Part shown: positions 30,280-51,132 of the stretch, piece after piece
How positions within the stretch are numbered: position 1 is the stretch's first letter
Layout: every line of letters begins with the position of its first letter
Translations under genes and position numbers: made by a program
Notes under the pieces: generated by a model
What the model was told of the DNA's origin: nothing
Database searches by the model: none
Seen by the model: only the letters and a program-made list of their open reading frames with translations
From: Pseudomonas viridiflava
GTDB lineage: Bacteria > Pseudomonadota > Gammaproteobacteria > Pseudomonadales > Pseudomonadaceae
Length of the DNA stretch: 64,000 nucleotides
Assembly (NCBI GenBank): GCA_900596015.1
Contig: UVIF01000001.1
Location: 390,513-454,512, forward strand
Direction of reading: 5' to 3'

Positions 30280-31712
30280 ACCGGCAACTCGGTCTTGCGC
30301 CGACGCACCTGCGCCGGTGCCGGACGCTCGCAGGGCAAGAACTGGCCCCGCCCCGCTTCGCCCCGAGGCTCACCGTCCCATACCACCTCGCCGCGCGACA
30401 GCGTGATGGCCGGCCAGGCGCTCAATTGCATGCCGGCGTAAGGGGTGTAGTCAACGTTGTGGTGCAGCATTTCGTTGCTGATCGACACCGGCTGCCCTTC
30501 GTCCCAGATCACCAGATCGGCATCGGCGCCGATGGCGATACTGCCCTTGCGCGGGTACAGCCCGTACATCTTTGCAGCGTTGGTCGACGTCAGTGCGACG
30601 AAGCTTTGCGCCGTGATGCGCCCGGTGCGCACGCCTTCGGACCACAACAGCGCCATGCGGGTTTCGACACCGGGAATGCCGTTGGCGATCTGGTCGAACG
30701 ACACGTCTTCGCCGTGGGCCTTCTTGCCATCGGGGCCGTCGTAACGAAACGGCGCGTGGTCGGACGAGAAGATCTCGAACGAACCGTTTTCCAGCCCGTC
30801 CCAGATCACCTGCTGGTTTGCGGCGTCCCGAGGTGGTGGGCTGCAGATGCATTTGGCGCCTTCGAAGCTGTCGTCGCAGCCCAGCGAGTCGGCGGTCAGA
30901 AACAGGTATTGCGGGCAGGTTTCGGCATACACCTTCAAGCCGTGGTTCTGCGCCCAGCGAATCTGCTCGACGGCCTCGCGACCCGATACGTGGACGATGA
31001 GGATGGGCACATCCACCAGTTCGGCCAAGGCAATGGCGCGGTGCGTGGCCTCGCGTTCCACCAGCATCGGTCGCGAGCTGGCGTGGTAGCGCGGCGCGCT
31101 GAGCCCGGCCGCCAGCAGCCGCTCGGTGAGCCAGGCGATGCAATCGCTGTTCTCGGCATGCAGCATGACCATGGCCCCTTCGCGGCGGGCCACGGACAGG
31201 GTTTCGAGAATCTCTCGATCGCCCAGTTTCAGCGCGTCGTAGGTCATGTAGATCTTGAACGAGGTATAGCCCTCGGCAATCAGTGCCGGCAATTCTTCAC
31301 GCAAGACCTGCGGGGTCGGGTCGGTGACGATCAGGTGGAACGCGTAGTCGATGACCGGCTTGTTGCCTGCCCGGCGATGGTAGTCATCCACTGCTGCACG
31401 CAGGGTTTCACCCTTCTGCTGACAGGCGAAAGGAATCACTGTGGTGGTCCCGCCGCAGGCCGCCGACACCGTGCCACTGAAAAAATCATCGGCCATCACC
31501 GAGCCGTCGCCGGTGGGCTGGTCCAGGTGCACATGGCTGTCGATGCCGCCAGGGGTCACGTGCCGGCCGGCCGCGTCGATTTCCGCAAGGCCTGGGGGCA
31601 GCTCCAGGGCCAGGGCGACGATGCGCCCGTCGCGAATGCCGATGTCACTGGTGAAGGTGTCTGCGGCAGTGACTACGCGAGCGTTGCGAATAACCGTATC
31701 GAAAGGTTGCAT
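30276..31712 (-). CDS. Dihydropyrimidinase/D-hydantoinase family cyclic amidohydrolase
   Basis: 478 residues from the ATG at 31712 (AGAGG upstream). Binuclear zinc ligands are all present: H60 and H62 (DSHVHLDQ), the carboxylated lysine K153 (FKIYMTYDAL), H185 (MLHAENSD), H241 (IVHVSGRE) and D318 (SSDHAPF). The family opens dihydropyrimidines, hydantoins and other cyclic imides to N-carbamoyl acids. It starts 2 bases after the previous stop in the operon. No beta-ureidopropionase or Pyd gene is nearby, so this is probably not the housekeeping pyrimidine pathway. Confidence 0.92.
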   Translation of the reverse strand: MQPFDTVIRNARVVTAADTFTSDIGIRDGRIVALALELPPGLAEIDAAGRHVTPGGIDSHVHLDQPTGDGSVMADDFFSGTVSAACGGTTTVIPFACQQKGETLRAAVDDYHRRAGNKPVIDYAFHLIVTDPTPQVLREELPALIAEGYTSFKIYMTYDALKLGDREILETLSVARREGAMVMLHAENSDCIAWLTERLLAAGLSAPRYHASSRPMLVEREATHRAIALAELVDVPILIVHVSGREAVEQIRWAQNHGLKVYAETCPQYLFLTADSLGCDDSFEGAKCICSPPPRDAANQQVIWDGLENGSFEIFSSDHAPFRYDGPDGKKAHGEDVSFDQIANGIPGVETRMALLWSEGVRTGRITAQSFVALTSTNAAKMYGLYPRKGSIAIGADADLVIWDEGQPVSISNEMLHHNVDYTPYAGMQLSAWPAITLSRGEVVWDGEPRGEAGRGQFLPCERPAPAQVRRRKTELPV

Positions 31713-31713
31713 A

Positions 31714-32442
31714 TCAAGCCTCTTCAAGCAGTAGCCGGCCCCAGCCGGTCAAGCGACGTGTGTCCACGCCGGTCATGTTCAACATGTCCCAGAGCACCGT
31801 CGTCACCGTGTCGAACACCGGTACCCCGTGCTGGCGCTCCCAGGGTTCGGCACGGTGGGCGGCGTGCAGGTTGGTGCAGAAGGTGGTGATGGCCTCGGCA
31901 CCGGCCGCGACCACCTCGGCCACCTGACGATCCAGGGTGGCTTCGTCCACTTCGGCAAAGGAGAAATTGTCCTGCAGCGACAGGTGGCTTTCGGCGCTGG
32001 CATCGATGCCCAGCGCGGCATAGTTGGCAACGATCTTCGCCTGTACCTCCGCCAGATACGGCGAGACCAGGCCCAGGCGGCGAATGCCGAAGCGCTGCAG
32101 CGCCTTGTTCAGTGCCAGCACCGAGGTCGTCGCCGGTATCGCCGTGGCCTCGGTAATGGCCTGGCATAGCGCAACGTCGGTCTCGAAACCCAGCCATCCG
32201 GCAGAGGTGCCGCTCCAGCCGATTACATCGACATGGGCATCGGCCAGCAAGCGCGCCGCGTCCAGAATCCGCTCGCGCTGGAACTGGCCCAGCGCGTCGG
32301 CGCTGAGGGCGATCTGAGTGACACTGAAGCGTGAGAAATGCACGCTGACTTCCGGCAGGCCGGCTATCAACGCCTGGGTCAGTGGCTCCAGTGCGGTGTT
32401 CGAGGAAGGCGTAAGCACGCCCAGGCGAATACGGCGGGTCAT
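31714..32442 (-). CDS. Asp/Glu racemase superfamily protein, arylmalonate decarboxylase/maleate isomerase-like
   Basis: 242 residues from the ATG at 32442 (GGAGG 6 bases upstream). The N-terminal LGVLTPSSNTALEP is the hallmark of the AMDase/maleate isomerase branch. At the first catalytic position Gly replaces Cys (VIGWSGTSAGW, G78), while the second Cys is kept (ITTFCTNLH, C189); this Gly/Cys pattern is that of arylmalonate decarboxylase, not of a two-Cys racemase. A cofactor-free decarboxylation or isomerisation is inferred. Its stop and the next start are separated by one base. Confidence 0.82.
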   Translation of the reverse strand: MTRRIRLGVLTPSSNTALEPLTQALIAGLPEVSVHFSRFSVTQIALSADALGQFQRERILDAARLLADAHVDVIGWSGTSAGWLGFETDVALCQAITEATAIPATTSVLALNKALQRFGIRRLGLVSPYLAEVQAKIVANYAALGIDASAESHLSLQDNFSFAEVDEATLDRQVAEVVAAGAEAITTFCTNLHAAHRAEPWERQHGVPVFDTVTTVLWDMLNMTGVDTRRLTGWGRLLLEEA

Positions 32443-33821
32443 GCTGGACCTCCAGTGATCGCGTGCGAGGAAGGATAGGCGCGCAAAGGCTTTTCGCAAC
32501 GTTGCCACAGGTCGCGGCACACGGTGTCGGCTGCGGCACGTACACAGGCTTCGTCGACCTGGGTCGAGCGGCCTTGGTCGATCACCACCCGACCGTCGAC
32601 GATCACCGTTTCGACGTCGGCCCCGGTGGCGTTGTGCACCAAACTGCCCAGCGCATCGATGCAGGGAGTGAGGTGGAGTTGTCGATAGTCGAGGATGGCC
32701 AGGTCAGCCAACTGGCCGACCGCCAATCGACCCAGGTGTTCGCCCCAACCCAGCGCCGCGGCGCCGTTGACGGTGGCCATGCGCAGCACGTCGCGTGGTT
32801 GCCAATCGTCGGCCACCCGCCCGGCACTCAATCGCCCTACCGCCAGCGCCCAGCGCATGACCTCGATCATGTCGCCGTGCATGGTGTCGGTAGCCAGGCA
32901 CAGGCGCGCGCCGGCCTGCAGCAGGCGACGCGTCGGCGCCACCCGTCCGGACATGGCGTTGCCGACCGGGATGTGCACGACATGAGCACCCGAGGCGCCG
33001 ATGCGGGCGATGTCCTCGTCATCCACGTGAATGCAGTGACCGGCCAGCAGGCGCGAATCGAGCATGCCCAGCTCATCGAGCAGTTGCACCGGCGAGCGGC
33101 CGTGGGTAGCGCGCACCCAATCCAGTTCGTCCTGGCTCTGCGCCAGGTGCGTGCTGATCTGCAGACCATGCCGGCGGGCCAAGGCATCGATCTGGCGCAG
33201 GAAGTCCAGCGAGCAGGTATCGGGCGCGTGAGCGGTCAGGTGGGCCTGGATACGTCCGTCGGCTTGCCCTGCCCAGCGTTCGACGAAGGCCTCGGCGTGG
33301 TCCAGCTGGGCCAGGCCACGCTTCAGGTCGAAGCGCCGCGTGCCTTGCAGCACCGAGGCGAAATCGACATCGGCCAGACGTTGGCTGGCGAACAGGCGCA
33401 CACCTGTTTCGGCCATGCCTGCCACTGTGTGCTCGGCATGCACGAAGCTGTCCACAAGCGTCGTGCAACCCGCCCGCAGCGCTTCCAGTGCACCGAGGCG
33501 GGACAACGCCAGTGCTTCTTCCGGGCTGAGCCATGAAGCCTGTGGCAGGCCGGGGGTGTAGGACGGCGCGAAGCCGCAGTCCGGCGCCACTCCACGGACG
33601 AAATTCAGGCCGGCATGGTAATGGGTATTGACGAAGCCGGGCACCACCACCCGGCCCGGCAGGTGCAGATGCCGCACGGCTTTGGGCGCAGCCTGGTCGG
33701 CTGGCCCGACGTGGGCGATGCGTTGGCCACGGATGCCCAGGCTCGCGGACTGCGCACGGCCGTCGACCGGGTCCAGCAGCACCGCGCCGGTAATCAGTAG
33801 ATCCAGTGGATTGTCGATCAT
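32439..33821 (-). CDS. Amidohydrolase, ATZ/TRZ (chlorohydrolase-deaminase) type
   Basis: 460 residues from the ATG at 33821, which overlaps the SDR stop. Mononuclear metal motifs: HYHAGLNFVRG (H67, H69), a His in ISTHLAQSQDE, a His in GHCIHVDDEDI and an Asp in CLATDTMHGDMIEV. The family includes S-adenosylhomocysteine, guanine and triazine deaminases and N-isopropylammelide-type enzymes. It would hydrolyse C-N bonds of a cyclic amidine or aminated ring. Central gene of the operon; its stop overlaps the decarboxylase-like gene start. Confidence 0.87.
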   Translation of the reverse strand: MIDNPLDLLITGAVLLDPVDGRAQSASLGIRGQRIAHVGPADQAAPKAVRHLHLPGRVVVPGFVNTHYHAGLNFVRGVAPDCGFAPSYTPGLPQASWLSPEEALALSRLGALEALRAGCTTLVDSFVHAEHTVAGMAETGVRLFASQRLADVDFASVLQGTRRFDLKRGLAQLDHAEAFVERWAGQADGRIQAHLTAHAPDTCSLDFLRQIDALARRHGLQISTHLAQSQDELDWVRATHGRSPVQLLDELGMLDSRLLAGHCIHVDDEDIARIGASGAHVVHIPVGNAMSGRVAPTRRLLQAGARLCLATDTMHGDMIEVMRWALAVGRLSAGRVADDWQPRDVLRMATVNGAAALGWGEHLGRLAVGQLADLAILDYRQLHLTPCIDALGSLVHNATGADVETVIVDGRVVIDQGRSTQVDEACVRAAADTVCRDLWQRCEKPLRAYPSSHAITGGPA

Positions 33822-34615
33822 GCGGCCATCCACCCGCCGTCCACCATCAACGTGGTGCCAGTGATGAAGCTGGCCTCGGCGCTGGCCAGAAACAGCACGG
33901 CCTTGGCGACATCGTCGGGATGGCCCAACCGCGGCCAGGGGGTACGCTGCGTGGCCCGCGCCATCACCGCCGGGTCTACCGCCCGGCCACCGGCGCCGGT
34001 CTGGATCTTGCCGGGCGCCACCGCGTTGCAGACGATGCGCTGCTCGGCATAGTCGCCCGCAACCTGCCGGGTGAGGTAATCCACAGCCGCTTTGCTCACG
34101 CCATAGGCCAAGTCGTGGGGCGCGGCAATCATGCCGTGTTGCGAGGACAGGTTGACGATGCGTCCGCGGGTTTCACCGACTATCGCCTGGCCGACCATTT
34201 GCCGCACGGCAGCCCGGCAACAGCGGTAGACACCCCCGAGATTGACGTCCAGGACACGCTGCCAGTCGGCCTCGTCAAGCTCGAGCAAGGGCCGCGCGTG
34301 ACGGATGCAGGCGTTATTGACCAGCACATCGAGGCGCCCGAAGCGCGCTACCGTGGTCTCGACCAAGGCCTCGACCTGAGCGCTGTCGGCAACGTCGGTC
34401 TGCACGAACAGGGCCTGATGGCCAGCGGCGCGAATCAGGTCGGCGGTTGGCTCGCCGCCCTCGATGACAGCCGTGGTGACATCGGCGATGACCACGCAGG
34501 CACCGTGGCTTGCCAGGTGCCAGGCAATGGCGCGGCCGATGCCGGATGCCGCACCGGTGACGATGCATACCTGGCCCGCCATGCTCGACGAGTTCGCCAA
34601 AGGGGTGGAAGTCAT
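33818..34615 (-). CDS. Short-chain dehydrogenase/reductase
   Basis: 265 residues, classical SDR. Cofactor motif TGAASGIG near residue 20, NNAC in place of NNAG, catalytic Ser in VNLSSQHG and YxxxK in YGVSK. The basic residue after the second strand is absent (IADVT), favouring NAD+ over NADP+. C-terminal ASFITGTTLMVDGGW is typical of FabG-like SDRs. It overlaps both neighbouring genes by four bases, so it is embedded in the operon. Substrate unknown, presumably a hydroxy or oxo intermediate. Confidence 0.9.
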   Translation of the reverse strand: MTSTPLANSSSMAGQVCIVTGAASGIGRAIAWHLASHGACVVIADVTTAVIEGGEPTADLIRAAGHQALFVQTDVADSAQVEALVETTVARFGRLDVLVNNACIRHARPLLELDEADWQRVLDVNLGGVYRCCRAAVRQMVGQAIVGETRGRIVNLSSQHGMIAAPHDLAYGVSKAAVDYLTRQVAGDYAEQRIVCNAVAPGKIQTGAGGRAVDPAVMARATQRTPWPRLGHPDDVAKAVLFLASAEASFITGTTLMVDGGWMAA

Positions 34616-35619
34616 GGGTTCACTCTTGTCTGGGGGCCTGCCACCTGGGCAAGCCAGTGATGAAAATCGTGATCGGCAGCGTCGATGTCGAATCGCGGAG
34701 CGAAGCCGCAGTCTTCGCGCAGACGGTCGACCGCCATGCTCGCCCGGTCATAGTCGGCGTACAGCTCGATGTTCGGTGTTTCCCCCGGCGCCGCCAGACG
34801 CCAGCGGAAGTCCGGGAAACGGGTGGCCAGACGAGCGCACCATTGGCTGAGCGGCCATTGGAAACCAGCCGCCAGGTTATAGAGGGGATATCGCCACTGC
34901 GGCTGGTCCAGCAGGCAGCCGATGGCCTGCGCGGCGTCGCGGACATACAGCCAGTCGCGCAGGCTGTCGCGCGCCAGGATCGCCATGCCGCCACGGCGGG
35001 CCACTTGCAACAGTTGCAGGGGCGCGCTGAGGGTGTCGCGCACGCCGCTGTCGGCTTCCCAGGGCCCGAAGCAAGTGCCCAGGCGGCCGATGACCAAGGG
35101 CAACCCATGCAGTTGGGCAAGGCGCCGCGCCGCATCCTCGGCGCTGCGCTTGGATTGGCCGTAGAGGCCCTCGGGAGCCAAGGCGGAACGGGCTTCGTCG
35201 AGCAACGGCGCGTGACGCCCGGTGCTGCCGTAGACCGAGCCCGAGCTGATGTGCACCAGCCGCGACACACCGCACTCGGCGCTCGCGCCAATGGCCGCGA
35301 GTACCCCGCCCACGTTCACTTCGAAGATCGCCTGTGGCGCCAGAAGCTCGCGCTCGGCGTCGGCGGTGATGGCCGCCAGGGTCACCACCCGCTGGGGACG
35401 ATGGCGACCCATGAGCGTGCGCAGGTCGCTCGCATCCCGCACATCGCCCTGATGCTCGATGAAACGTCCCGGCAATTTGGCGAAAACCGCTCGCGCGGCG
35501 TCCGGAATCGGCCCCAGGTCGAAACCGATCACTTCTTCACCCGCCGTCAGCAGGTGCTCGCTCAAGGCCAGGCCGACGAAGCCACTGCTGCCGGTGATCA
35601 GCGTCTTCATCTCAGGCAT
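34612..35619 (-). CDS. NAD-dependent epimerase/dehydratase family protein
   Basis: 335 residues; extended SDR with TGSSGFVGLALSEHLL at the N-terminus and the active-site Ser-Tyr-Lys set (HISSGSVYGS; LYGQSKRSAED). Fold relatives are sugar-nucleotide epimerases and 3-beta-hydroxysteroid dehydrogenases; the substrate is unknown. The ATG at 35619 overlaps the ABC ATPase gene by eight bases; a second ATG at 35610 (MKTLITG) is an alternative. An unusual partner for an importer and hydrolases, so it may act on the imported compound. Confidence 0.84.
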   Translation of the reverse strand: MPEMKTLITGSSGFVGLALSEHLLTAGEEVIGFDLGPIPDAARAVFAKLPGRFIEHQGDVRDASDLRTLMGRHRPQRVVTLAAITADAERELLAPQAIFEVNVGGVLAAIGASAECGVSRLVHISSGSVYGSTGRHAPLLDEARSALAPEGLYGQSKRSAEDAARRLAQLHGLPLVIGRLGTCFGPWEADSGVRDTLSAPLQLLQVARRGGMAILARDSLRDWLYVRDAAQAIGCLLDQPQWRYPLYNLAAGFQWPLSQWCARLATRFPDFRWRLAAPGETPNIELYADYDRASMAVDRLREDCGFAPRFDIDAADHDFHHWLAQVAGPQTRVNP

Positions 35620-36382
35620 TTTCCCGCAGCGGTTCCGGGCGCAGCAGCGCCAGGATATGCCGCTTGTAGTCGTTGAAGGCCTTGCTGGTCGGGTCGCGCG
35701 GACGTTCCAGCTCGATCGGCAGCAACTCGCGGATGCGCCCTGGGCGGGCCGACATCACCGCCACATGGGTACCCAGTGCCAAGGACTCATCGATGCCGTG
35801 GGTGACGAATACGATCGTGCTCTGGCTCTCGCGCCAGATCCGGATCAGCTCGGCGTGCATGTCCATCTTGGTCTGTTCGTCCAACGCACCGAACGGCTCA
35901 TCCATGAGGATCACTTCAGGGTTCATGAGCAATGCGCGGGCGATGCCCACGCGCTGATTCATGCCACCGGAAAGTTCGCTGGGAAAGTGGTTCTCGAAGC
36001 CGGTCAGGCCCACCATTTCGATGAATTTCTGCGCTTTCTCACGACGTATGTCCTTGCCCACGCCGCGCATCTTCAGGTGAAAGGCGACGTTCTCCCAGAC
36101 CGGCAACCACGGCATCAGGTTGGCTTGCTGAAACACCACGCCACGATCGGCCCCCGGCGCGGTAATCGATTGCCCGCCCACGCTGACCGTGCCCTGGGTA
36201 GGGTGATCGAAGCCGGCGATCATGTTCAGCAGGGTCGACTTGCCGCAGCCGCTGGGGCCCAGCAGGCAGAGAAATTCGTTGCGCGCCACCGTCAGGCTGA
36301 CGTCGTCCAGGGCAACGATGCCGGTGGGTCGCTTGGGGTCGTCGAACACGCGCGAGACGCGGTCGATGGTGATCAGTGCCAT
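35612..36382 (-). CDS. ABC transporter ATP-binding protein, SsuB/TauB type
   Basis: 256 residues. Walker A GPSGCGKST, Q-loop FQQANLMPW, signature LSGGMNQRV, Walker B VILMDEPFGALDEQ and the switch His in VTHGIDE are all intact. The family energises uptake of nitrate, sulfonates, taurine or thiamine precursors. It lies 3 bases after the permease gene and with the two genes upstream forms a complete importer. Confidence 0.93.
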   Translation of the reverse strand: MALITIDRVSRVFDDPKRPTGIVALDDVSLTVARNEFLCLLGPSGCGKSTLLNMIAGFDHPTQGTVSVGGQSITAPGADRGVVFQQANLMPWLPVWENVAFHLKMRGVGKDIRREKAQKFIEMVGLTGFENHFPSELSGGMNQRVGIARALLMNPEVILMDEPFGALDEQTKMDMHAELIRIWRESQSTIVFVTHGIDESLALGTHVAVMSARPGRIRELLPIELERPRDPTSKAFNDYKRHILALLRPEPLRENA

Positions 36383-36385
36383 GCC

Positions 36386-37246
36386 TCAGCCCTCCTTCTG
36401 CAACGTGGAACCGCGCTGCCAGCGCAACAGGTATGCGCCCACCCGCTTGATCGCATAGTCACTGAGAAAACCCAGCAGGCCGATGCTGACCATGGAGGCG
36501 ATGACGATGTCGTAACGCAGGAAATAATAGGAATCCCACAGCACATAGCCGACGCCGCTTTTCACCGCGACCATTTCCGCTGTGACCGTGAGCATCCACG
36601 CCGAGCCGATGGCGATGCGCAGGCCCGAGAAGATGCTCGGCAGTGCCGCCGGGAAGACGATGTAAAGCAATAGTTTGCTTGGCGTACCACCGGTCATGGC
36701 GCCTGCGCGCAACAGGTTGCGGTCGCAGTTCTTGACACCGTGAATGGTGCTCAACAGCACTGGAAAGAACGACCCCATGAACACCAGGAAGATCGCCGGT
36801 TTGTCGGCGATGCCGAACCAGATGATCGCCAGGGGAATCCAGGACACCGGCGGGATCGGGCGCAGAATCTGCAGCACCGGCTCGAACAGGTTTTCTGCGG
36901 TGCGCGACCAGCCGATGGCCATGCCTGCGCCGACGCCGAGCAAGGCCGCGATAGCGAAGCCTGCGAACACCCGGAACGAGCTGGCGGCCACATCGAGGAT
37001 CCAGTGGCCGCTGTAGCTCTGCGTGTTGCCATCGGTGGCGAAGACCCAGTCGGCCCAGGCGATCATGACCTGGGACGGGGCCGGCAGCAGCGCGCGCGGC
37101 AAGATGCCGGAGCGGGAAAAGATCTCCCAGCCCACCAGCAGCAGCACCGGCACGATGCCGCGCTCGATGCGTTTGTACAGGCGCCGGCCCAGGGATGGGC
37201 CATGCCCTCGCCCGACCCCGTGCGCCTTGATGGCGGTACTTTTCAT
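36386..37246 (-). CDS. ABC transporter permease, SsuC/TauC type
   Basis: 286 residues with about six membrane segments. The EAA-type loop facing the ATPase is seen in RAGAMTGGTPSKLLLYIVFPAAL (listed here in part: GGTPSKLLLYIVFPAAL). A cytoplasmic, basic N-terminus precedes the first helix. It begins one base after the substrate-binding protein stop, so the two are surely cotranscribed. Confidence 0.92.
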   Translation of the reverse strand: MKSTAIKAHGVGRGHGPSLGRRLYKRIERGIVPVLLLVGWEIFSRSGILPRALLPAPSQVMIAWADWVFATDGNTQSYSGHWILDVAASSFRVFAGFAIAALLGVGAGMAIGWSRTAENLFEPVLQILRPIPPVSWIPLAIIWFGIADKPAIFLVFMGSFFPVLLSTIHGVKNCDRNLLRAGAMTGGTPSKLLLYIVFPAALPSIFSGLRIAIGSAWMLTVTAEMVAVKSGVGYVLWDSYYFLRYDIVIASMVSIGLLGFLSDYAIKRVGAYLLRWQRGSTLQKEG

Positions 37247-37247
37247 C

Positions 37248-38273
37248 TCAGTACCCCAGCTCGGTTTTCGGCTTGCCGGTCACCGCTTCCAGAAAGCTGT
37301 AGTCCAGGTTCTTCTCTACCTGCTCGCTGACATCGGTGCTGATGTACTTGAGGTCACGCATCATTTGCGCAATGGCTACGGCCGATGCGCGGTGCATGGC
37401 GTAGTCGGGGTAGAGGTTGTCGACCGCGCCGGTGGCGATGGCCTTGTCCAGCCCGGTGACTTTCTGGATGGTATCGATGAACAGCGGCTTGTCGTTGGCC
37501 ATCAGGTCATTGACCTTGACGATGGAACGCACTGTTTCCTCGACGCCCTTGCGGTTGTCCTCGATCACATCGGAGCGGGTAACGATCAGGTTGGTCAACT
37601 TGCCAGCCGCCTGGTCGTAGGGAAAGTCGAAGAACTTGGCCGCCTTGACCTCGCGGATCTGCGTGGCGAACGGGTCCACCGAAGTGATCAGCTCCACTTC
37701 GCCGCGGCGCAGTGCCTGCACGTGGTCAGACGGGTTGGGGATGTTGATGAATTGCACATCCTTGTTGATATCGATGCCGTGCTTGAGGAACGCCCCACGC
37801 ATATGGATATCCTGGGCGTTGCCGCGCGAAGCGGCGACACGGAAAGGCTTGTCTTCGGCCTTGTACTTGTCGATGAGCGCCTTCAAGCCGACCCAGTCGC
37901 CAGGCTGCAGCGGCAGGTCGTTGCCCACCAGAATCTGTGAGCCGCCGTTGATCTGCCCGGACACGGCCACCACGTCGAACCCCTTGTCCAGCGCGGTGGC
38001 GTAATGCAGGTAGGTGACCTGCGCCACGTCGATGCTCTTGGAAAGCAGCGCCGTGAGCACGTCGTTGCCGGTGTTGAAGGCAATGGCGTCGAGTTTCACC
38101 CCGGTGGCGTTTTGCGGCGTCAGCGACAACGGCGTGCAGTGGGCGCACTTGGCGTAACCGAGTTTGACCGGTTTGGCTTCGTCGGCATGGGACATGGCCA
38201 TCATGCCGAGGCTCAACACCAAGGCCGAAAAGGCACGCTTGAGCAAGGTAGTGGACGAACGAATAGCTGGCAT
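37248..38273 (-). CDS. ABC transporter substrate-binding protein, SsuA/NMT1 type, with CxxC
   Basis: 341 residues from the ATG at 38273 (GGAG 8 bases upstream). Signal peptide about 1-30 ending MMAMSHADE. The mature start VKLGYAKCAHCTPL is the usual first beta-strand/helix of SsuA-like binding proteins, but carries a CAHC pair where most relatives have a GY/F-x-G loop beside the ligand; a disulfide or metal contact is possible. First gene of the nine-gene leftward operon. Ligand class (nitrogenous or sulfonated organic) is inferred from the downstream enzymes only. Confidence 0.88.
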   Translation of the reverse strand: MPAIRSSTTLLKRAFSALVLSLGMMAMSHADEAKPVKLGYAKCAHCTPLSLTPQNATGVKLDAIAFNTGNDVLTALLSKSIDVAQVTYLHYATALDKGFDVVAVSGQINGGSQILVGNDLPLQPGDWVGLKALIDKYKAEDKPFRVAASRGNAQDIHMRGAFLKHGIDINKDVQFINIPNPSDHVQALRRGEVELITSVDPFATQIREVKAAKFFDFPYDQAAGKLTNLIVTRSDVIEDNRKGVEETVRSIVKVNDLMANDKPLFIDTIQKVTGLDKAIATGAVDNLYPDYAMHRASAVAIAQMMRDLKYISTDVSEQVEKNLDYSFLEAVTGKPKTELGY

Positions 38274-38594
38274 CGGGCTTCTCCAATTGTCACTAAAGGC
38301 TGAGGCTTTGTGGCAAAGAGTTTGCAACCGTTATGCCATGTTTGTGGCAGTGGCTGGAAACCGCGCTGGTTTCAAAGCGTGCCCATGGAGCTCAGGGGCT
38401 GCACAGCGGGGCCTCGCTGACCGCACGCAGCGGTTTTCGCGGTCGCAGACTGCGCCCGTGAGTACGGGCTGATCATGGCCAGGAAAGCGATCGCTGCGCG
38501 CCTATGGGTCGCCGTGGTGCATGTTTGGACAACCACACACCATTTTGTGACAATCCGCCATCTGACAGTAACGAAGCTTACGAGGAGCCTTTAC
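38274..38594. promoter_or_regulatory. Divergent control region with repeated TTGTGxCAA motifs
   Basis: No gene is visible in this 321-base gap between the importer operon and the GntR gene. It holds CTTTG-TGG-CAAAG (38306-38318, perfect inverted repeat, near the importer start), TGCCA-N6-TGGCA (38334-38349) and TTGT-G-ACAA (38545-38553, near the regulator start). The TTGTG(G/A)CAA core recurs, and GTGACAAT also occurs inverted at about 38285-38293. These are candidate operators for the FCD-type GntR protein encoded next door. Confidence 0.5.
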
Positions 38595-39326
38595 GTGCTC
38601 GATCAACAAACATTCTCCCCCCGCCCGCGTCGTGTTCGCAGTACCGGGCAGATCCTGGGCACCGGCAGCACCCGCGATGGCATCTACGAACGCATCCTCA
38701 ACGCCGTGATGGAACACCGCCTGATCCCCGGTACCAAGCTGGTGGAGGAGAAGCTGGCCGGGGTGTTCCAGGTCAATCGCACCCGCATCCGCGAGGTGCT
38801 GGCGCGCCTGGCCCATGAGGGAGTCGTCACCACCATTCCCAATCGGGGTGCGTTCATCGCCAGCCCGTCGGTGGAGGAAGCCCGGCATGTCTTCCAGGCC
38901 CGGCGCATTCTGGAGCCGGCGCTGATCCGTAGCCTGGTGGCCAAGGCCGACAGCCAGCAGTTCAGTCGCCTGCACGCCCACGTGGCTGAAGAACGCGCCG
39001 CTCGCGAGACAGGCGACAAGCGCGCGGTCATTCGTCTGTCCGGCGAGTTTCATCTGCTGATCGCGCAGATGGTCGACAGCCCGCCCCTGGTCAAACTGAT
39101 GCGCGAGCTGTCCTCGCTGACTTGCCTGATCATTCTGCTGTACGACTCGCCGAACGTGCCTGCCTGCCCCAACCATGAGCACACCGAAATCGTCGAAGCC
39201 ATGGAGCAAGGCCAGGTCGAGGCAGCCATCGCCCTGATGCTGGGGCACCTGGACCACATCGAGGCGACGCTGGACCTATCGGTGGAAGAAGAAGCCGAAG
39301 TCGACCTGCAGGCAATTTTCGGCTGA
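38595..39326 (+). CDS. GntR family regulator, FCD type (paralogue 1)
   Basis: 243 residues from a GTG at 38595, chosen because GAGGAG lies 8 bases upstream; the open frame continues further left without a good site. Winged helix at about 25-95 (LVEEKLAGVFQVNRTRIREV; PNRGAFIASPS) and an FCD ligand domain with His and acidic residues (SGEFHLLIAQM; HEHTEIVEAM). Divergent from the importer operon and followed 32 bases on by the racemase homologue, it probably governs both. It is clearly similar to the regulator at 45850-46527. Confidence 0.87.
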   Translation: MLDQQTFSPRPRRVRSTGQILGTGSTRDGIYERILNAVMEHRLIPGTKLVEEKLAGVFQVNRTRIREVLARLAHEGVVTTIPNRGAFIASPSVEEARHVFQARRILEPALIRSLVAKADSQQFSRLHAHVAEERAARETGDKRAVIRLSGEFHLLIAQMVDSPPLVKLMRELSSLTCLIILLYDSPNVPACPNHEHTEIVEAMEQGQVEAAIALMLGHLDHIEATLDLSVEEEAEVDLQAIFG

Positions 39327-39358: not shown

Positions 39359-40093
39359 ATGAGACTGCTGATCATCAATCCCAATATCTCCCACAGTGTC
39401 ACCGACCTGATCGAGGCAGAAGCGCACCGCACTGCGGCTGCGGATACGCAGATCCAGATGGCGACCGCGGCGAGCGGTGTGGCTTACATCGAGACCCGCT
39501 TCGAAGCCCTGCTCGGCGCCCACGCAGCGACGGTGATCGCCGGGGAGCGCCTGGGCAGCTACGACGCAGTGCTGGTGGCGGCATTCGGTGATCCCGGGCT
39601 GCTTGCGCTCAAGGAGGTACTGGACGTGCCGGTGGTGGGCATGACCGAAGCGGCATTGATGACGGCCGCCCAACTGGGCCAGAGGATCTCGATCATCGCC
39701 ATCTCCCGGCGTATCACCAGTTGGTACCGTGAGTGCGTGGCACAGAACGGCATGCTCGACCGCCTGGCCAGTATTCGCCATCTGGACCGCCCGTTGCGCG
39801 ACGCCGGCAGCGTTCAGGAAGATCATGCCGAGCGCCTACTGGAGCTCAGCCACCTGGCGGTGAACGAAGATGGCGCCGACGTGCTGATCCTCGCCGGCGC
39901 CCCACTGGCTGGGCTGGCACGGGGGTTGGCCGGTCGGTTGCCGGTTCCGGTGGTGGACGGCGTGTCGTGCGGCGTGGCCCAGGCGCAGTTGTTGCACCGC
40001 CTGCAGGCCGGTAGGGCCACCCACGGCAGCTTCGCCCGCCCACCGGCCAAACCCAACCAAGGCTTGCCAGCGGGGCTACAGGCCCTCCTGTAG
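39359..40093 (+). CDS. Hydantoin racemase-family protein lacking both catalytic cysteines
   Basis: 244 residues; the N-terminus MRLLIINPNISHSVTD and overall pattern are those of HyuE/Asp-Glu racemases. In active hydantoin racemases two Cys act as acid/base (ACFxDPGL and LGCAGM). Here they are VAAFGDPGL (A75) and LILAGAPLAGL (G180), so neither Cys exists and racemisation by the known mechanism is not expected. It may be a lyase, isomerase or binding protein. AGGAA precedes the ATG. The stop TAG lies inside a repeat arm shared with the convergent amidase gene. Confidence 0.8.
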   Translation: MRLLIINPNISHSVTDLIEAEAHRTAAADTQIQMATAASGVAYIETRFEALLGAHAATVIAGERLGSYDAVLVAAFGDPGLLALKEVLDVPVVGMTEAALMTAAQLGQRISIIAISRRITSWYRECVAQNGMLDRLASIRHLDRPLRDAGSVQEDHAERLLELSHLAVNEDGADVLILAGAPLAGLARGLAGRLPVPVVDGVSCGVAQAQLLHRLQAGRATHGSFARPPAKPNQGLPAGLQALL

Positions 40094-40179
40094 CAGCGGC
40101 GCAAGCCGCGTCCGGGTTCACCGCGGTGTGCCTGCCAAACTGCATGTACCGCCGACGCGGCTTGCGCCGCTGCTACAGG
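40087..40179. repeat. Inverted repeat (26-base arms) spanning two gene ends
   Basis: CCTGTAGCAGCGGCGCAAGC... (40087-40112) and its exact inverse (40154-40179) flank a 41-base centre. They enclose the end of the racemase homologue and of the amidase gene; in each gene the final CTG-TAG (Leu-stop) is the repeat itself. The arms differ in sequence from the GTAGGAGCGG REP family and are probably a second REP class. The hairpin should also terminate or protect both transcripts. Confidence 0.9.
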
Positions 40180-41609
40180 GGTTGGGGGATGCCTTGGTTG
40201 CGCAGCATGGGCGCCTCGAACGACAGGCCCAGCACCCGCTCCATTTCCGCGGCGGCCTGAAGCACGCGCCCGTCCATGTAGCGCGCGGCAACCACCTGCA
40301 GCCCCACCGGCAGCCCGTGCTTGCCGAAGCCACAAGGCAACGACAGTGCGGGCACCCCGCAGTAGTTGAACACCGGGGTATAACCGGCATGTCCGCGCGG
40401 CCCGGCGGGCTGACCGCCAATGGTCGCGGGGCCCAATTGCCCCACGGCCCAGGCTTCCACCGGCGCGGTCGGACACAGCAGCAGATCATAGTCGTCGAAG
40501 AATGTGGCCAGGCTCAGCGACAGTCCGTTGCGCAATTCCAGCAAGCGGGCCGTGTGTACGCCGGAAAGCGCCCGACCTGTTTCAATCTGCGCCAGGATGT
40601 CTGGGTCCAGGCGCTGCAACTGATCATCTGCAAGCCCCCCGAACTGTGCGGCCAAAGCCGTATGCTGCAAGCCCAGCAACGCATAACCTTCCAGGGCGCC
40701 TGGCCAGCGCGGACTGGCGAGCTCGATGGACCAGCCATCGCGTTCCAGTGTCGCCAATGCGGCCGCCATGGCCATGGCCACATCGCTGTCCAGCGCCATG
40801 CCCAGGCCCAGGTCCGGCGACCAGGCGACCCGCAGCGACCGCTGGTCCCGCGACTGTCGAGCCAGCGACTGGGCACTGAAATGCGGCTGCGACAAGGGGT
40901 CGGCGGCGTACCAGGCGAACAGACTGCGAGCCATGAGGGTAACGTCCTCGACATCGCGCCCCAGCTGGCCGATCACCGAGAGCAGATGGTTGGGGTCGGC
41001 GAACCCCCAGGGATTGGGTACGGCGCCCAGGCTCGGTTTGAAGCCGACCAGCCCGGTGTGCGCGGCGGGACGCCGCGTGGAGCCACCCGCGTCGGTCGCC
41101 AGGGCCAACGGCCCCAACCCGGCCGCCACCGCAGCCACCGCGCCCCCTGACGATCCACCCGGAGTCAGTGACAGATTCCACGGGTTGCGGGTGGTGCCGT
41201 GCAACGGGTTGGTGGTGATGCCCTTGCAGGCAAACTCGGAACAGTTGGTCATCCCCAGCGCCACCCCGCCCAGCTCGTTCAGGCGTTGCACGCACCAGGA
41301 GTCGCGCGGCGCCACGAAGTCGGCAAACACGCTGGAACCGAAAGTCGCCGGTCGACCGCCCAACCAGAGGTTGTCTTTGACGCTGAACGGTACGCCGGCC
41401 AAAGGCAGATATTCCTTGGCGGCGACCCGCTGGTCGCTGCTACGCGCTCGAGCCAGCACGTCGGCCCGCTGATAATCGATGAACGCATTGAGCGACGGAT
41501 TCAACCGCTCGAGACGATCGCACACCGCTGTCGCCACCTCGACCGCGCTTAGCTCGCGCGTATTGACCAAATGCGCGATCTGTTGCGCCTTCAAACGATG
41601 AATATCCAT
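40173..41609 (-). CDS. Amidase (amidase-signature family)
   Basis: 478 residues, a normal amidase-signature length. The Ser-cisSer-Lys triad is visible: Lys in VPFSVKDNLWLGG, cis-Ser in TPGGSSGGAVAAVA and nucleophile Ser in ATDAGGSTRRPAAHTG. It hydrolyses a carboxamide to acid plus ammonia. AAGGAGA lies 8 bases before the ATG. It faces the PotABCD-type importer across a 321-base control region and could release ammonia from a ring-opened amide, which fits the cluster but is inference. Confidence 0.9.
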   Translation of the reverse strand: MDIHRLKAQQIAHLVNTRELSAVEVATAVCDRLERLNPSLNAFIDYQRADVLARARSSDQRVAAKEYLPLAGVPFSVKDNLWLGGRPATFGSSVFADFVAPRDSWCVQRLNELGGVALGMTNCSEFACKGITTNPLHGTTRNPWNLSLTPGGSSGGAVAAVAAGLGPLALATDAGGSTRRPAAHTGLVGFKPSLGAVPNPWGFADPNHLLSVIGQLGRDVEDVTLMARSLFAWYAADPLSQPHFSAQSLARQSRDQRSLRVAWSPDLGLGMALDSDVAMAMAAALATLERDGWSIELASPRWPGALEGYALLGLQHTALAAQFGGLADDQLQRLDPDILAQIETGRALSGVHTARLLELRNGLSLSLATFFDDYDLLLCPTAPVEAWAVGQLGPATIGGQPAGPRGHAGYTPVFNYCGVPALSLPCGFGKHGLPVGLQVVAARYMDGRVLQAAAEMERVLGLSFEAPMLRNQGIPQPL

Positions 41610-41930: not shown

Positions 41931-43025
<1,095 letters not shown>

Positions 43026-43055
43026 CCCTGAACTGACCCGCACGAGGAATCGACG

Positions 43056-44102
43056 ATGGATATTTCCCGCAGACGCATCATGCAATCCGCCCTGGCCTTG
43101 GGCGCACTGCAGCTGTTCCCGCAGCTGACCATGGCTCAAGCGCGCAATCTGGTGTTCGCGACGTTTACCGGCAGCTGGGAAGAAGCCCACAAGGCTGTGC
43201 TGGTGCCTGCCGCGCTGGAACACATGAAAGACGCGAACATCATTCTCGACCCGATGATCTCAGTCGACCAGATCTCCAAGGTCATGGCCTCCCGTGAACA
43301 TCCGCCCATCGACGTCATGCTGCACGATCCGGGCCCTGCCCTGACCGCCATCGAACAGGGCTTGATCGAGCCCTACCCGGTGGCGGACAGCGCCTACTAC
43401 CAGCAGTTGATGCCCGAAGCCCAAGACCCGATGGGGCCGAGCATCTTCTATCAGATCGTTGGCCTGACCTATAACCCGGACACCATCCAGACCCCTCCCG
43501 ACTCCTGGATGGACTTGTGGAAGCCCGAGTACAAGGGCCGGGTAGGCATCACCAACATGAACTCCTCCCTGGGCACCGGCTTCATGGTCGAGCTGGCCAA
43601 ACTGCATGGCGGCTCGGACAACAACATCGAGCCGGCCTTTGAACTGCTGACCAAACTCAAGCCCAACCTGGCCGCGGTTGCCGCCAACCCCGGTCAACTG
43701 GCTTCGCTGTTCCAGCAAGGCCAGATCGACATCAGCCCGGGCAACTTCAACGCCATCCAGATCCTCAAGGCCCGTGGCGTACCGGTGGAATGGGTGGCGC
43801 CCAAGGAAGGCGCGATCGCGTTCAAGACCAGTATCCATATCGTCAAGAACTCACCGAATCGCGATCTGGCTTTCGCCTTGATCGAAGCGTCGATGTCGCC
43901 CCAGGTGCAATCGCAGCTGATGGAAGCGCCTTACCTGGTAGTGCCGACCAACATGCAGGTAAAGATGTCTGGCGAGATAGCCGAATCACTGGCCAAGGAC
44001 CAGGCAGAAATGAAATCCCGGTTTCGCTTTCAGGACTGGAAGGTGATCAATCCGAACCGGGCGGCCTGGATCGAGCGCTTCAACAAGGACATCCAGGTCT
44101 GA
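43056..44102 (+). CDS. ABC transporter substrate-binding protein, PotD type
   Basis: 348 residues with N-terminal MDISRRRIMQSALALGALQL, an Arg-rich, hydrophobic leader resembling a Tat signal, with cleavage near TMAQA. The mature part (LVFATFTGSWEEAHKAVL) fits type-2 extracellular solute-binding proteins (PotD/AfuA/opine-type). GAGGAA lies 7 bases before the ATG. It lies 30 bases after the ATPase gene. Ligand unknown. Confidence 0.88.
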   Translation: MDISRRRIMQSALALGALQLFPQLTMAQARNLVFATFTGSWEEAHKAVLVPAALEHMKDANIILDPMISVDQISKVMASREHPPIDVMLHDPGPALTAIEQGLIEPYPVADSAYYQQLMPEAQDPMGPSIFYQIVGLTYNPDTIQTPPDSWMDLWKPEYKGRVGITNMNSSLGTGFMVELAKLHGGSDNNIEPAFELLTKLKPNLAAVAANPGQLASLFQQGQIDISPGNFNAIQILKARGVPVEWVAPKEGAIAFKTSIHIVKNSPNRDLAFALIEASMSPQVQSQLMEAPYLVVPTNMQVKMSGEIAESLAKDQAEMKSRFRFQDWKVINPNRAAWIERFNKDIQV

Positions 44103-44146
44103 GCCATGCCTGGAGCCATCCCTTCCCGCTGTGAGGAGTCCGGCAC

Positions 44147-45004
44147 GTGAGCGCCCGAAACCATGACGTCACCGTGTACAGCCTGCGCTACGGCCTGCCG
44201 TTGGCAGCATTCTTCGTGCTGTTCTTCATCACGCCGCTGTTGTTGCTGGTACTGGTCAGCCTGCACGACGACACCGCCGTCAGCGTCTGGGGCGTAGCGC
44301 AATACGCGAAGATCTTCGGCGAAGGCCTGGCGCTGCGCGTGCTTGGCGATACCTTGTGGCTCGGCGTGCAGGTTACCGTGCTGTGCCTGGGCCTGGGCTA
44401 CGCTCTGGCCTGGGCTTACGTGCGCAGCTCGCCGACCACCCAGAAGGTGCTGATGATGATCATCGTCATGCCTCTGCTGACCAGCGTGGTGGTGCGCACC
44501 TTCGCCTGGGTGGTGATCCTCGGGCGCCAGGGCATCGTCAACGAACTGCTGCTGGGCTGGGCATGGATCGACAAGCCGCTGCGCCTGCTCTACTCCCGAG
44601 AAGGGTTGATCTGGGCGCTGGCCAATGTGCAGTTGCCGCTGATGACCCTGCCGCTGATCACTACCTTGCAACGCCTGGAAAGCAATCTTGAGGATGCCTC
44701 CGCCGCCTTGGGCGCCAATGCCTGGCGCACCTTCCGGCGGATCACCGTGCCGCTGTCGCTGCCGGGCATCATCGCCGGCAGCCTGCTGACCTTCTCGGCG
44801 ACCATCACCGCCTTCATCACCCAGTCTCTGGTGGGCGGCGGGCAGATGCTGTTCATGCCGATGTACATCTACCAGCAGGCGTCGGCCCTGCAGAACTGGC
44901 CATACGCGGCGGCCATCTCACTGGTGTTTCTGGTGGCCGTGATCGGCTGCGTGACGCTGTTGAGCTACCTGGGCCGCCTCAGCAAGGGGTACGCAACCAC
45001 ATGA
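44147..45004 (+). CDS. ABC transporter permease, PotB type
   Basis: 285 residues from a GTG start with GAGGAG upstream. About six membrane segments and an EAA loop (DASAALGANAWRTFRRITVP) contacting the ATPase. Its stop overlaps the next permease start as ATGA. With the other three genes it forms a full heterodimeric-permease importer. Confidence 0.92.
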   Translation: MSARNHDVTVYSLRYGLPLAAFFVLFFITPLLLLVLVSLHDDTAVSVWGVAQYAKIFGEGLALRVLGDTLWLGVQVTVLCLGLGYALAWAYVRSSPTTQKVLMMIIVMPLLTSVVVRTFAWVVILGRQGIVNELLLGWAWIDKPLRLLYSREGLIWALANVQLPLMTLPLITTLQRLESNLEDASAALGANAWRTFRRITVPLSLPGIIAGSLLTFSATITAFITQSLVGGGQMLFMPMYIYQQASALQNWPYAAAISLVFLVAVIGCVTLLSYLGRLSKGYATT

Positions 45005-45819
45005 GCATGGGACGTCGCAACGACCTGTCTGATATCGTCCTCAAGGCCACACTCTATCTGGTGGCCTGGGCCGCCGTGATTCTGCTGTTGGCGCCTACGC
45101 TTATCGTGCTGATCGTCTCGTTCACCGACAGCTATTCACTGCGCTTTCCGCCCCAGGGCTTCTCGACACGCTGGTATGTCGCCCTGTTCAAGGCGTTCAC
45201 CCTGCATTTCGCGGCGTGGAACAGTTTTCTGGTGGCGTCGATGACCACGCTCTTGTGTGTGGTCATGGGCACTGCCGCCTCGCTGGCAATCGCCCGCTCC
45301 ACAAGCAAGACAGCGCGCTGCCTCGACGCGCTGTTCATGTCGCCGTTGATTCTGCCGGGGCTGGCGTTCGGCTTGTCGGCGCTGATCTTTTTCAGCGAGC
45401 TGGGCGTGCCGGTGTCGATGACCACGCTGGTGATCGGTCACACCGTGGTCTGCGTACCCTACGTCATCCGGACCACCTCTTCGGCGCTGATGCAATTGCC
45501 GCCGGCGCTGCTGGAAAGCGCGGCCAGCCTGGGATCCTCGAGAGCTCACGCATTGCGGCGCATTACCTTGCCGTTGATTGCGCCGGGCATCGCGGCCGGG
45601 GCATTCATTGCGTTCATGTCGTCGTTCGATAACACTGCCGTCTCGCTGTTTCTGCGCGACGCGCGCACCGACATGCTGCCGATCCGCATGTGGCAGGACC
45701 TGGAGAGCAAGCTGGACGTCACCATCGCCGCTCTGTCCAGCGTGCTGGTCATCGTCACCCTGGTGATGATGATCGTGATGGAAAAATTGACCGGCATCAG
45801 CCGACGCATCCGCGGGTGA
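45001..45819 (+). CDS. ABC transporter permease, PotC type
   Basis: 272 residues, about six membrane segments, EAA loop ESAASLGSSRAHALRRITLP. Coupled to the PotB-type gene by a four-base overlap. The highly hydrophobic N-terminus and AFIAFMSSFDNTAVSLFL region are typical of PotC-type subunits. The regulator gene follows 30 bases on. Confidence 0.92.
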   Translation: MSMGRRNDLSDIVLKATLYLVAWAAVILLLAPTLIVLIVSFTDSYSLRFPPQGFSTRWYVALFKAFTLHFAAWNSFLVASMTTLLCVVMGTAASLAIARSTSKTARCLDALFMSPLILPGLAFGLSALIFFSELGVPVSMTTLVIGHTVVCVPYVIRTTSSALMQLPPALLESAASLGSSRAHALRRITLPLIAPGIAAGAFIAFMSSFDNTAVSLFLRDARTDMLPIRMWQDLESKLDVTIAALSSVLVIVTLVMMIVMEKLTGISRRIRG

Positions 45820-46539: not shown

Positions 46540-47448
46540 TCACACTGCGGCGGCGTCACGCTCCAGCCACGCCTGGGCAATCTGCTCGCGGGTGGCGAAC
46601 CACACACCTTCATGGCCCTGCGCGTACTCGATGAACTTCTGCAGGGCACGCACCCGGCCCGGGCGTCCGACCATGCGCGGGTGCAGGCCGACGGACATCA
46701 TGCGCAGGCCGTCTGCAGATTCTTCGTGCAGCACCTCGAAGCTTTCCTTCATGTATTCAAGAAAGTCGGAAGCCTGGGACAGGCCCGGCGAATTCCAGTA
46801 GCGGAAATCATTCACATCACTGGTGTACGGCACCACCAGGTGGCGTTTGCCTTCCACGTCGACGAAGTACGGCACGTCATCGTTGTAGGCATCGGAGTCA
46901 TAGAGGAACCCGCCCTCCTCAGCCACCAGGCGACGGGTGCGCACGCTGGCGCCATAGCGGCAGTACCAGCCTACCGGGCGCTTGCCGCAGGTGCGCTGGA
47001 AGGACTCGATGGCCAGGCGGATGTGCTCGCGCTCCTGCTCCTCGGTCAGGCGGAACACTTCCTCCCAGCGGTAGCCATGGCTGCACACTTCGTGGCCCAG
47101 CTCGACCGCCGCCCGCGCCACGTCGGGGTTCTGCTCGAAGGCCACCGCGCAGGCATGGAACGTGGCCGGCACGCTGGCCTTCTGCAGAATCTGCAGGATG
47201 CGCCAGATGCCGACCCGCGAGCCATATTCGTACATCGACTCCATGGCCAGGTTGCGTACGCCATCGGGAAACTGATAGCTGCCCCACTCGGTCATGCTTT
47301 CCTGATCGGGATCGCCCATGGCCAGGGACCGTTCGGAGCCTTCCTCGTAGTTGATGACCAGGCTGATCGCCAGCCGGGCGCCATTGGGCCAGGTACCCTG
47401 GGGACGTTGCTGGCCATAGCCGACCAGATCTCTTAGGGGTGATGTCAC
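46540..47448 (-). CDS. Polysaccharide deacetylase-family protein, allantoinase PuuE-like
   Basis: 302 residues from a GTG at 47448 (MTSPLRDLVGYG); GGAGAG lies about 9 bases upstream. PuuE features: the N-terminal DLVGYGQQRPQGTWPNGARLA and NYEEGSE, then SHGYRWEE and the RYGASVRTRRL block. PuuE is a metal-sparse NodB-fold enzyme that hydrolyses allantoin to allantoate. Other members act on cyclic imides or cytosine-like rings, and no allantoin-pathway gene (allantoicase, PuuD, urate oxidase) is nearby. It is encoded just after the RpiR regulator. Confidence 0.84.
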   Translation of the reverse strand: MTSPLRDLVGYGQQRPQGTWPNGARLAISLVINYEEGSERSLAMGDPDQESMTEWGSYQFPDGVRNLAMESMYEYGSRVGIWRILQILQKASVPATFHACAVAFEQNPDVARAAVELGHEVCSHGYRWEEVFRLTEEQEREHIRLAIESFQRTCGKRPVGWYCRYGASVRTRRLVAEEGGFLYDSDAYNDDVPYFVDVEGKRHLVVPYTSDVNDFRYWNSPGLSQASDFLEYMKESFEVLHEESADGLRMMSVGLHPRMVGRPGRVRALQKFIEYAQGHEGVWFATREQIAQAWLERDAAAV

Positions 47449-47493
47449 GGTACGGCTCTCCAGCAGGTTGGGCAAAGTGCCGGGCCTGGGGCC

Positions 47494-49635: not shown

Positions 49636-49672
49636 AGTGAGTCTCCCGTTTGCTTGTTAGGGGTAGAGCCTG

Positions 49673-51081: not shown

Positions 51082-51132
51082 GAACGGTTACCTTGGTCGT
51101 GGGCCGGTAGCGGGCGGGTCGAAGCGCGGTGC

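Follow-up and report, generated by a model that had tools for sequence, protein, structure and literature searches.

How does a protein that keeps the whole fold of the allantoin and hydantoin racemases manage without either of the two catalytic cysteines? Is it still a racemase, an enzyme of another kind, or no enzyme at all? We addressed these questions for w35, a gene within a 64,000-nucleotide stretch of the Pseudomonas viridiflava genome that we refer to as the window. A preliminary description of this DNA had proposed that Ala75 and Gly180 occupy the two cysteine positions of an otherwise conserved hydantoin racemase homolog. The features in question are:

39359..40093, + strand: w35, a Cys-less protein of the allantoin/hydantoin racemase fold, 244 amino acids (open reading frame, Pfam, alignment, model)
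39581..39583, + strand: codon of Ala75, the first catalytic Cys position (Ala in 80/80 nearest orthologs)
39896..39898, + strand: codon of Gly180, the second catalytic Cys position (Gly in 80/80 nearest orthologs)

The reading frame starts with an ATG at 39359, and its stop codon ends at 40093, giving 244 amino acids. Membership in the PF01177 superfamily is evident from a Pfam match at 133.9 bits (cut-off 31) that covers the entire profile (1–211 of 211) and from the two-domain fold. In a phmmer alignment with the allantoin racemase of K. pneumoniae (3qvj), VAAFGDPGL of w35 pairs with VIACFGDPGL and LILAGAPLAGL with IVLGCGGMATL, so that the catalytic Cys positions fall on A75 and G180. An AlphaFold2 model (pLDDT 94, pTM 0.91), built on an alignment of 60 sequences from the ortholog loci and the window, superposes with residues 1–243 on 4–247 of the 3qvj chain (Z 33.5, rmsd 1.8, 242 residues aligned, 32% identity) and with residues 1–235 on 1–235 of P. 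fluorescens AllR, 5lfd (Z 31.9, rmsd 1.8, 235 residues). At the level of residue ranges, these superpositions agree with A75 and G180 as the counterparts of Cys79 and Cys184, the catalytic pair of the K. pneumoniae enzyme as numbered in the accessible part of PMC12661438. The cysteine pair of the HyuE/HpxA-type hydantoin and allantoin racemases is therefore replaced by A75 and G180 in w35. The proposed placement is confirmed by phmmer and by 80/80 orthologs and agrees with the structure superposition, the conservation of the remaining fold holds, and alignment to characterized structures found no other Cys at the catalytic positions.

Could the missing cysteines be an accident of one genome? 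The best 80 of 253 confirmed relatives in GTDB genomes served as the ortholog set. All 80 keep both AAFGDPG and AGAPLAGLA, at 62–96% identity, which rules out a sequencing error or a lone mutation. A compensating Cys elsewhere in w35 is ruled out as well: a check of all columns in 101 distinct A/G-type sequences (105 rows before removal of identical sequences) found no conserved substitute, the best column (104) holding 62 cysteines, with 60 at C126 and 6 at C204. Between w35 and its ortholog in P. baltica, a close relative of the window's strain (96% protein identity), dN/dS is 0.033. Few of the nine genes compared have a value as low; it marks purifying selection and rules out a pseudogene. 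Against P. typographi the value is 0.051. Among the matches listed, the w35 type occurs in 2/199 Pseudomonas genomes, the window's own included. The other matches listed in the genus reach at most 36% identity, and w35 is not an ordinary Pseudomonas allantoin racemase. A further PF01177 protein is encoded in the same genome (G000:C10:302841-303416, 78.3 bits).

At positions 75/180, the 197 homologous rows read A/G (105), C/C (46), G/C (31), C/G (7), V/G (7) and I/G (1), counts that mirror the sampling rather than natural frequency. The G/C rows stem from genomes of the same genus and resemble P. fluorescens AllR. In a quick maximum-likelihood tree, unrooted, with SH-aLRT support only and 82 of the 197 rows retained after thinning, C/C and G/C group together (95), apart from C/G (88) and from V/G plus I/G (95). 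The main A/G clade, likewise apart from C/C and G/C, comprises 31 rows of this tree (support 98), and five divergent A/G rows are placed elsewhere (97). Two changes are needed to explain the A/G state, of which well-supported branches force only one. One reading of the tree is that the second Cys may have been lost first and the first Cys later. For residue comparisons within the main clade we used 96 distinct sequences, 84 at 60% identity or more and 12 ranging down to 39%, leaving aside the five divergent A/G sequences (L165, L176, L179, L181 and one of two in L099). The absence of both cysteines thus stands as first described, whereas the isolation of w35 does not: its clade counts at least 96 distinct sequences, and one-Cys relatives exist, namely the G/C allantoin racemases, the C/G proteins and AMDase. 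One-Cys members were known before; in the open-access literature, as far as its text was available, we found neither a conserved clade lacking both cysteines nor a gene module of the kind described below.

Which residues, then, could stand in for the cysteines? Three sites deserve mention:

39590..39592, + strand: codon of Asp78, candidate general base/acid, aligned with Glu78 of P. fluorescens AllR (alignments)
39485..39499, + strand: Tyr43 to Arg47, the loop before helix 2 (Y43 and R47 in 96/96 main-clade sequences)
39722..39733, + strand: Trp122-Tyr123-x-Glu125, helix 5 (W122, Y123 and Glu/Asp at 125, each 96/96)

Invariant throughout the 96 main-clade sequences are Y43, R47, E49, D78, W122, Y123, the acid at 125, P182, D200 and K231. 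The 46 C/C sequences carry Ser, Gly or Cys at position 43 and Gly at 182 (46/46), and W122, Y123 and R47 fall outside the four commonest residues of their columns. At column 78, the C/C (46), C/G (7) and V/G (7) sequences have Asp and the G/C sequences (31) have Glu; because Asp78 shows the same invariance in Cys-bearing relatives, a new role does not follow from its conservation alone. Nor do R47 and Y43 track the double loss of Cys, because R47 is usual in the C/G and V/G rows and Y43 in the C/G rows. Y123 is usual in V/G rows; W122 and P182 are usual in neither C/G nor V/G rows. The preliminary description had passed over Asp78.

A precedent for an acid at this place is AllR. Like AllR (5lfd/5lg5), w35 has the racemase fold, no first Cys and an acid at 78 (Glu in AllR, Asp in w35); the two residues align with no gap nearby, and the ranges of model and 5lfd match residue on residue. 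Cendron et al. (2016) reportedly showed that Glu78 of AllR takes the place of the absent first Cys. Unlike AllR, which retains Cys180, w35 reads Gly180-Ala-Pro182, with Gly at 180 in 80/80 nearest orthologs. Could w35 nonetheless be a racemase or epimerase, Asp78 replacing the first Cys and Tyr43, Tyr123 or the acid at 125 the second? Its fold, the allantoin racemases that are its closest solved relatives, and the invariance of the Tyr and acidic residues speak for this. On the second face, the 179–185 loop contains no acidic residue. Other residues differ too: w35 shares with KpAllR (HpxA, 3qvj) the whole fold and the residues at N9, D78, E97 and D200, whereas Cys79, Cys184 and Thr118/Thr119 of KpAllR correspond to Ala75, Gly180 and Ala114/Ile115, and Tyr43, Arg47, Trp122, Tyr123 and Pro182 are unlike their KpAllR counterparts. 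Thr118/Thr119 are substrate contacts of KpAllR according to the portion of PMC12661438 at hand; Ala114/Ile115 is found in 84/84 close orthologs and mostly Thr114-Phe115 in the 12 distant clade members. Experiments on cysteine-bearing relatives bear on the same issue. In the available text of PMC10156859, conversion was undetectable for NozR C75A, C179A and the double mutant, and the accessible part of PMC12661438 gives OpaE C90S 4.8% of activity and C199S at most 0.3%. With most or all activity lost in such mutants, a chemistry other than Cys-dyad racemization, as the preliminary description had suggested, is the best reading, and we consider a w35 racemase unlikely.

What does the neighborhood of w35 suggest about its function? 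Three genes of the window are of immediate concern:

30276..31727, − strand: w26, dihydropyrimidinase of the PRK13404 subfamily (profile)
31717..32442, − strand: w27, maleate-isomerase/AMDase-like protein with Gly at the first site and Cys at the second (profile, alignment, model; the coordinates start at an internal Met and exclude the stop codon)
38475..39326, + strand: w34, GntR/FCD regulator, 32 bp upstream of w35 (profile)

The w26 protein scores 807 bits against PRK13404 dihydropyrimidinase (cut-off 647). His65, His67, Lys158, His190, His246 and Asp323, which we take to be its metal ligands, are at least 97% conserved in 82 homologs. A dihydropyrimidinase or hydantoinase is the usual partner of a hydantoin racemase, which adds to the case for w35 as a racemase. 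Maleate isomerase has a two-Cys site, and w27 has Gly where the first of these cysteines stands. The w27 fold lies about level between maleate isomerase (Z 31.1, rmsd 2.0, 237 aligned) and AMDase (Z 29.4, rmsd 2.0, 230 residues). All 73 homologs of w27 have Gly at the first site and Cys at the second. The AMDase signature consists of G74, T75-S76 and C188-G189 (PMC4996985, Table 4, in the accessible text); in w27 homologs the equivalents of G74, T75 and C188 are G, T and C in 73/73 and that of S76 is S in 68/73, and G189 is replaced by Thr in 73/73. The w27 score against NCBIfam arylmal_decarb, 69.8 bits, is under the 225-bit cut-off, and its match to the EutA profile is weak (73.9 bits, cut-off 318).

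Genes of the w26 and w27 types accompany w35 across much of its clade. Within 6 kb, w26 (at least 50% identity) is present in 63/80 A/G loci versus 1/37 control rows, and w27 (at least 40% identity) in 62/80 versus 0/37. The control comprised 34 C/C and 3 C/G rows, G/C loci having too little flank to be included; V/G paralogs were left out of the 80-locus counts, and Cupriavidus, Paraburkholderia and Pandoraea provide 39 of the 80 loci. Each of the two genes is seen in 14/20 named genera. Over the whole flank (at most 8 kb, and shorter in some loci), w26 is matched at 50% or more in 72/80 A/G loci, or 68/80 when more than half of w26 must be covered, and w27 at 45% in 67/80. Among the 66 loci in which w35 and w26 co-occur at high coverage, the two lie on one strand in 60 and within 150 bp of each other in 57, and 44 show the order MFS-w27-w26-w35 in one direction. 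Across 299 genomes of the phylum, w27 was found in 9 of the 10 with a main-clade protein (E of 5.1e-51 or less) versus 5/289 without; of the nine, G274 and G091 have their w27 match at a great distance from w35, and of the five, G050 and G235 encode other relatives that lack the second Cys. Much the same larger gene set recurs in L191–L193, from another class of the phylum, and on a Methylobacterium plasmid.

The linkage is incomplete. Within 6 kb, w26 and w27 are missing from 17 and 18 of the 80 A/G loci, and all 3 Pseudomonas and 3 Stutzerimonas rows are among the loci lacking them; in the window, both genes lie 7–9 kb from w35 on the opposite strand, with an importer in between. None of the neighbors looked for is present around L196 or around three of the divergent A/G loci, and no w35-type homolog occurs in six w27-containing regions (about 18 kb each) from genomes in which w35 is absent or distant. 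In L220, MFS-w27-w26 is followed, where w35 would stand, by a beta-lactamase-fold hydrolase (PF00144, L220:6027-7256). We set aside the idea that this hydrolase is a non-homologous replacement of w35, as 18 loci with an A/G member hold both. A PF00144 hydrolase also lies between MFS and w27 at L018:4573-5769, and DUF3830 proteins stand beside the module in Paraburkholderia loci (L086:8862-9281, L026:3067-3525). A second Cys-poor paralog was seen near w35 in L021, L029, L032, L034 and L059 (at about 4.1–4.9 kb), and further ones in L037 (3.1–3.9 kb) and L064 (15.7–16.6 kb). Six of these seven read VSIDTGL / LCGAVLAG, with their Cys at 179 and thus one residue earlier than usual; the L064 paralog reads VSLDSSA / LAGAAMSA.

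Might w35 have no catalytic role and instead serve in binding or regulation, perhaps as a ligand sensor that works with the GntR regulator encoded upstream? In favor of this, w35 lacks both catalytic cysteines, and the GntR gene adjoins w35 in the window, probably in one operon with it. Elsewhere, however, w35 follows MFS-w27-w26 in the 44 of 66 loci noted above, with w26 and not a regulator as its neighbor, and Asp78 is invariant in the clade together with many polar residues unlike those of two-Cys relatives. A mere binding protein, which the preliminary description had allowed for, is thereby made less likely, and we regard it as very unlikely. Alternatively, w35 and w27 might be subunits of a mixed enzyme in which w27 supplies the second-site Cys. 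The Gly/Cys of w27 in 73/73 homologs, the Ala/Gly of w35 in 80/80 and the co-occurrence of the genes across genomes agree with such an arrangement. To our knowledge, however, every chain of the known family members has its own complete site. The immediate neighbor of w35 is w26 in 57/66 loci, and four genomes (G270, G277, G235, G111) have w27 with no main-clade w35 in the genome search and no w35-type homolog in the region around w27. A mixed enzyme therefore appears highly improbable.

A one-sided reaction has precedents in the superfamily. AMDase shares with w35 the superfamily and a naturally absent first Cys (PMC4996985, accessible text), and its chemistry is one-sided, as proposed for w35; the fold of w35 matches it less well than the allantoin racemases (Z 19.2, rmsd 2.8, 203 aligned). 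Is w35 a hydrolase or an AMDase-like decarboxylase, the substrate bringing its own leaving group and Asp78 not needed as a base? Decarboxylases do exist in the superfamily, and the Gly/Cys site of the linked w27 resembles that of AMDase. Yet AMDase, as described in the available part of PMC4996985, protonates through Cys188 and keeps both this residue and a dioxyanion hole, and w35 has neither: it reads A75-F-G-D and G180-A-P, with no Cys there, and VAAFGDPG in place of LMGTSLSF leaves the Thr-Ser of the hole absent. We judge this reading quite unlikely. The DMSP lyase Alma1, of the same superfamily, has a fold that supports elimination, but requires both Cys (C108, C265) according to the accessible portion of PMC10349084; w35 has neither. 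The superfamily thus already includes a decarboxylase and a lyase, but both still depend on Cys, and this counts against a Cys-free reaction in w35.

Does the wider region point to a pathway? Around these genes the window encodes:

29533..30279, − strand: w25, FAA-hydrolase/2-keto-4-pentenoate-hydratase-like protein (profile)
32439..33833, − strand: w28, TRZ/ATZ-type amidohydrolase (profile)
33818..35619, − strand: w29–w30, SDR oxidoreductase and NAD-dependent epimerase/dehydratase (profile)
35612..38327, − strand: w31–w33, ABC importer with SsuA/NMT1-type binding protein (w33 by profile; w31 and w32 named by position relative to an annotated Klebsiella plasmid)
40173..41609, − strand: w36, amidase-signature hydrolase (profile)
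41931..45819, + strand: w37–w40, ABC importer of the PotABCD/PhnS kind (w37 and w38 by profile; w39 and w40 named by position relative to annotated relatives)
46540..47475, − strand: w42, PuuE-type (allantoinase-like) protein of the polysaccharide deacetylase family (354.7 bits, below the PuuE cut-off of 424.6)

With these neighbors (w25–w42) and the linkage to w26 and w27, the catabolic setting claimed for w35 is borne out. A perfect 26-nt inverted repeat at 40087–40179 spans the w35 stop codon and the spacer between w35 and w36. The genome contains 224 copies of a 22-base segment of this repeat, 112 per strand, with at most 2 mismatches, which identifies the repeat as a REP-like element. Between about 38000 and 42000, w34–w36 show dS values of 0.45–0.58 against P. 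baltica versus 0.07–0.13 for six other genes of the region, and nucleotide identity is 78–93% versus 90–98% outside; this raised divergence likely marks a recombination tract.

On the Polaromonas plasmid pE10SP1, a C/G-type relative is found in one region with a ring-opening amidohydrolase, an annotated ureidoglycolate lyase and a dihydropyrimidinase (PMC6015842, available text). Also encoded there are a remote homolog of w42 (27%) and, at 49–71% identity, relatives of w43–w46. Of these window genes, w44–w46 (48388–51909), a cysteine-desulfurase-like protein and an amino-acid-type importer, are 65–71% identical to genes of the Polaromonas cluster, and by this likeness the catabolic region may reach as far as about 52 kb. 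In L221, a w27 homolog lies about 3 kb from a gene of the AllG family (oxamate carbamoyltransferase subunit). Taken as gene content, the pE10SP1 cluster, the AllG gene and w42 point to ureide or cyclic-imide catabolism with no one substrate; barbiturate, maleimide, isoorotate, alloxanate and methylallantoin were each considered, and specific support was found for none.

How might w35 work? The loss of both Cys, the strong conservation and the linkage to genes for the opening of ureide-like rings indicate that it probably performs a different reaction from its racemase relatives. Racemization with two bases calls for an acid/base on both faces; w35 has an evident candidate on one only, which favors a one-base reaction at Asp78. 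Tentatively, and with somewhat less than even confidence, we therefore read w35 as an active enzyme of the allantoin/hydantoin racemase fold that works with a single base. With both proton-transfer cysteines lost, Asp78 on the first loop would act as the sole acid/base. The opposite face lacks a proton donor at 180, and a stereocenter would therefore not be inverted. Arg47 and Tyr43 would hold an anionic substrate, and the one-sided step would act on an intermediate, a ureide or cyclic imide, that w26 and the AMDase-like w27 produce or consume. Candidate reactions are elimination (for example of urea or an amine), tautomerization, and decarboxylation with protonation. The role of Asp78 as base, the place of R47/Y43 in the active site, the reaction type and the ureide substrate are what we infer from the comparisons above. 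Possible, and rather doubtful, is the extension of this reading to the clade as a new enzyme class, an Asp78-dependent, cofactor-free lyase/tautomerase in an undescribed ureide or cyclic-imide route with partners of the w26 and w27 types, in alpha-, beta- and gammaproteobacteria and Arthrobacter.

Two-Cys proton shuttles are usually illustrated with the Asp/Glu racemase fold. The existence of a clade that lacks both cysteines and has its own fixed set of polar residues suggests that this fold supports a Cys-independent active site, and the genes linked to this clade define a catabolic module. Annotated records name the protein 'aspartate/glutamate racemase family protein' or 'Asp/Glu/hydantoin racemase', and a database name as a racemase may give the wrong reaction for this clade. 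The clade is a natural test of whether an acid three positions on can take over from Cys.
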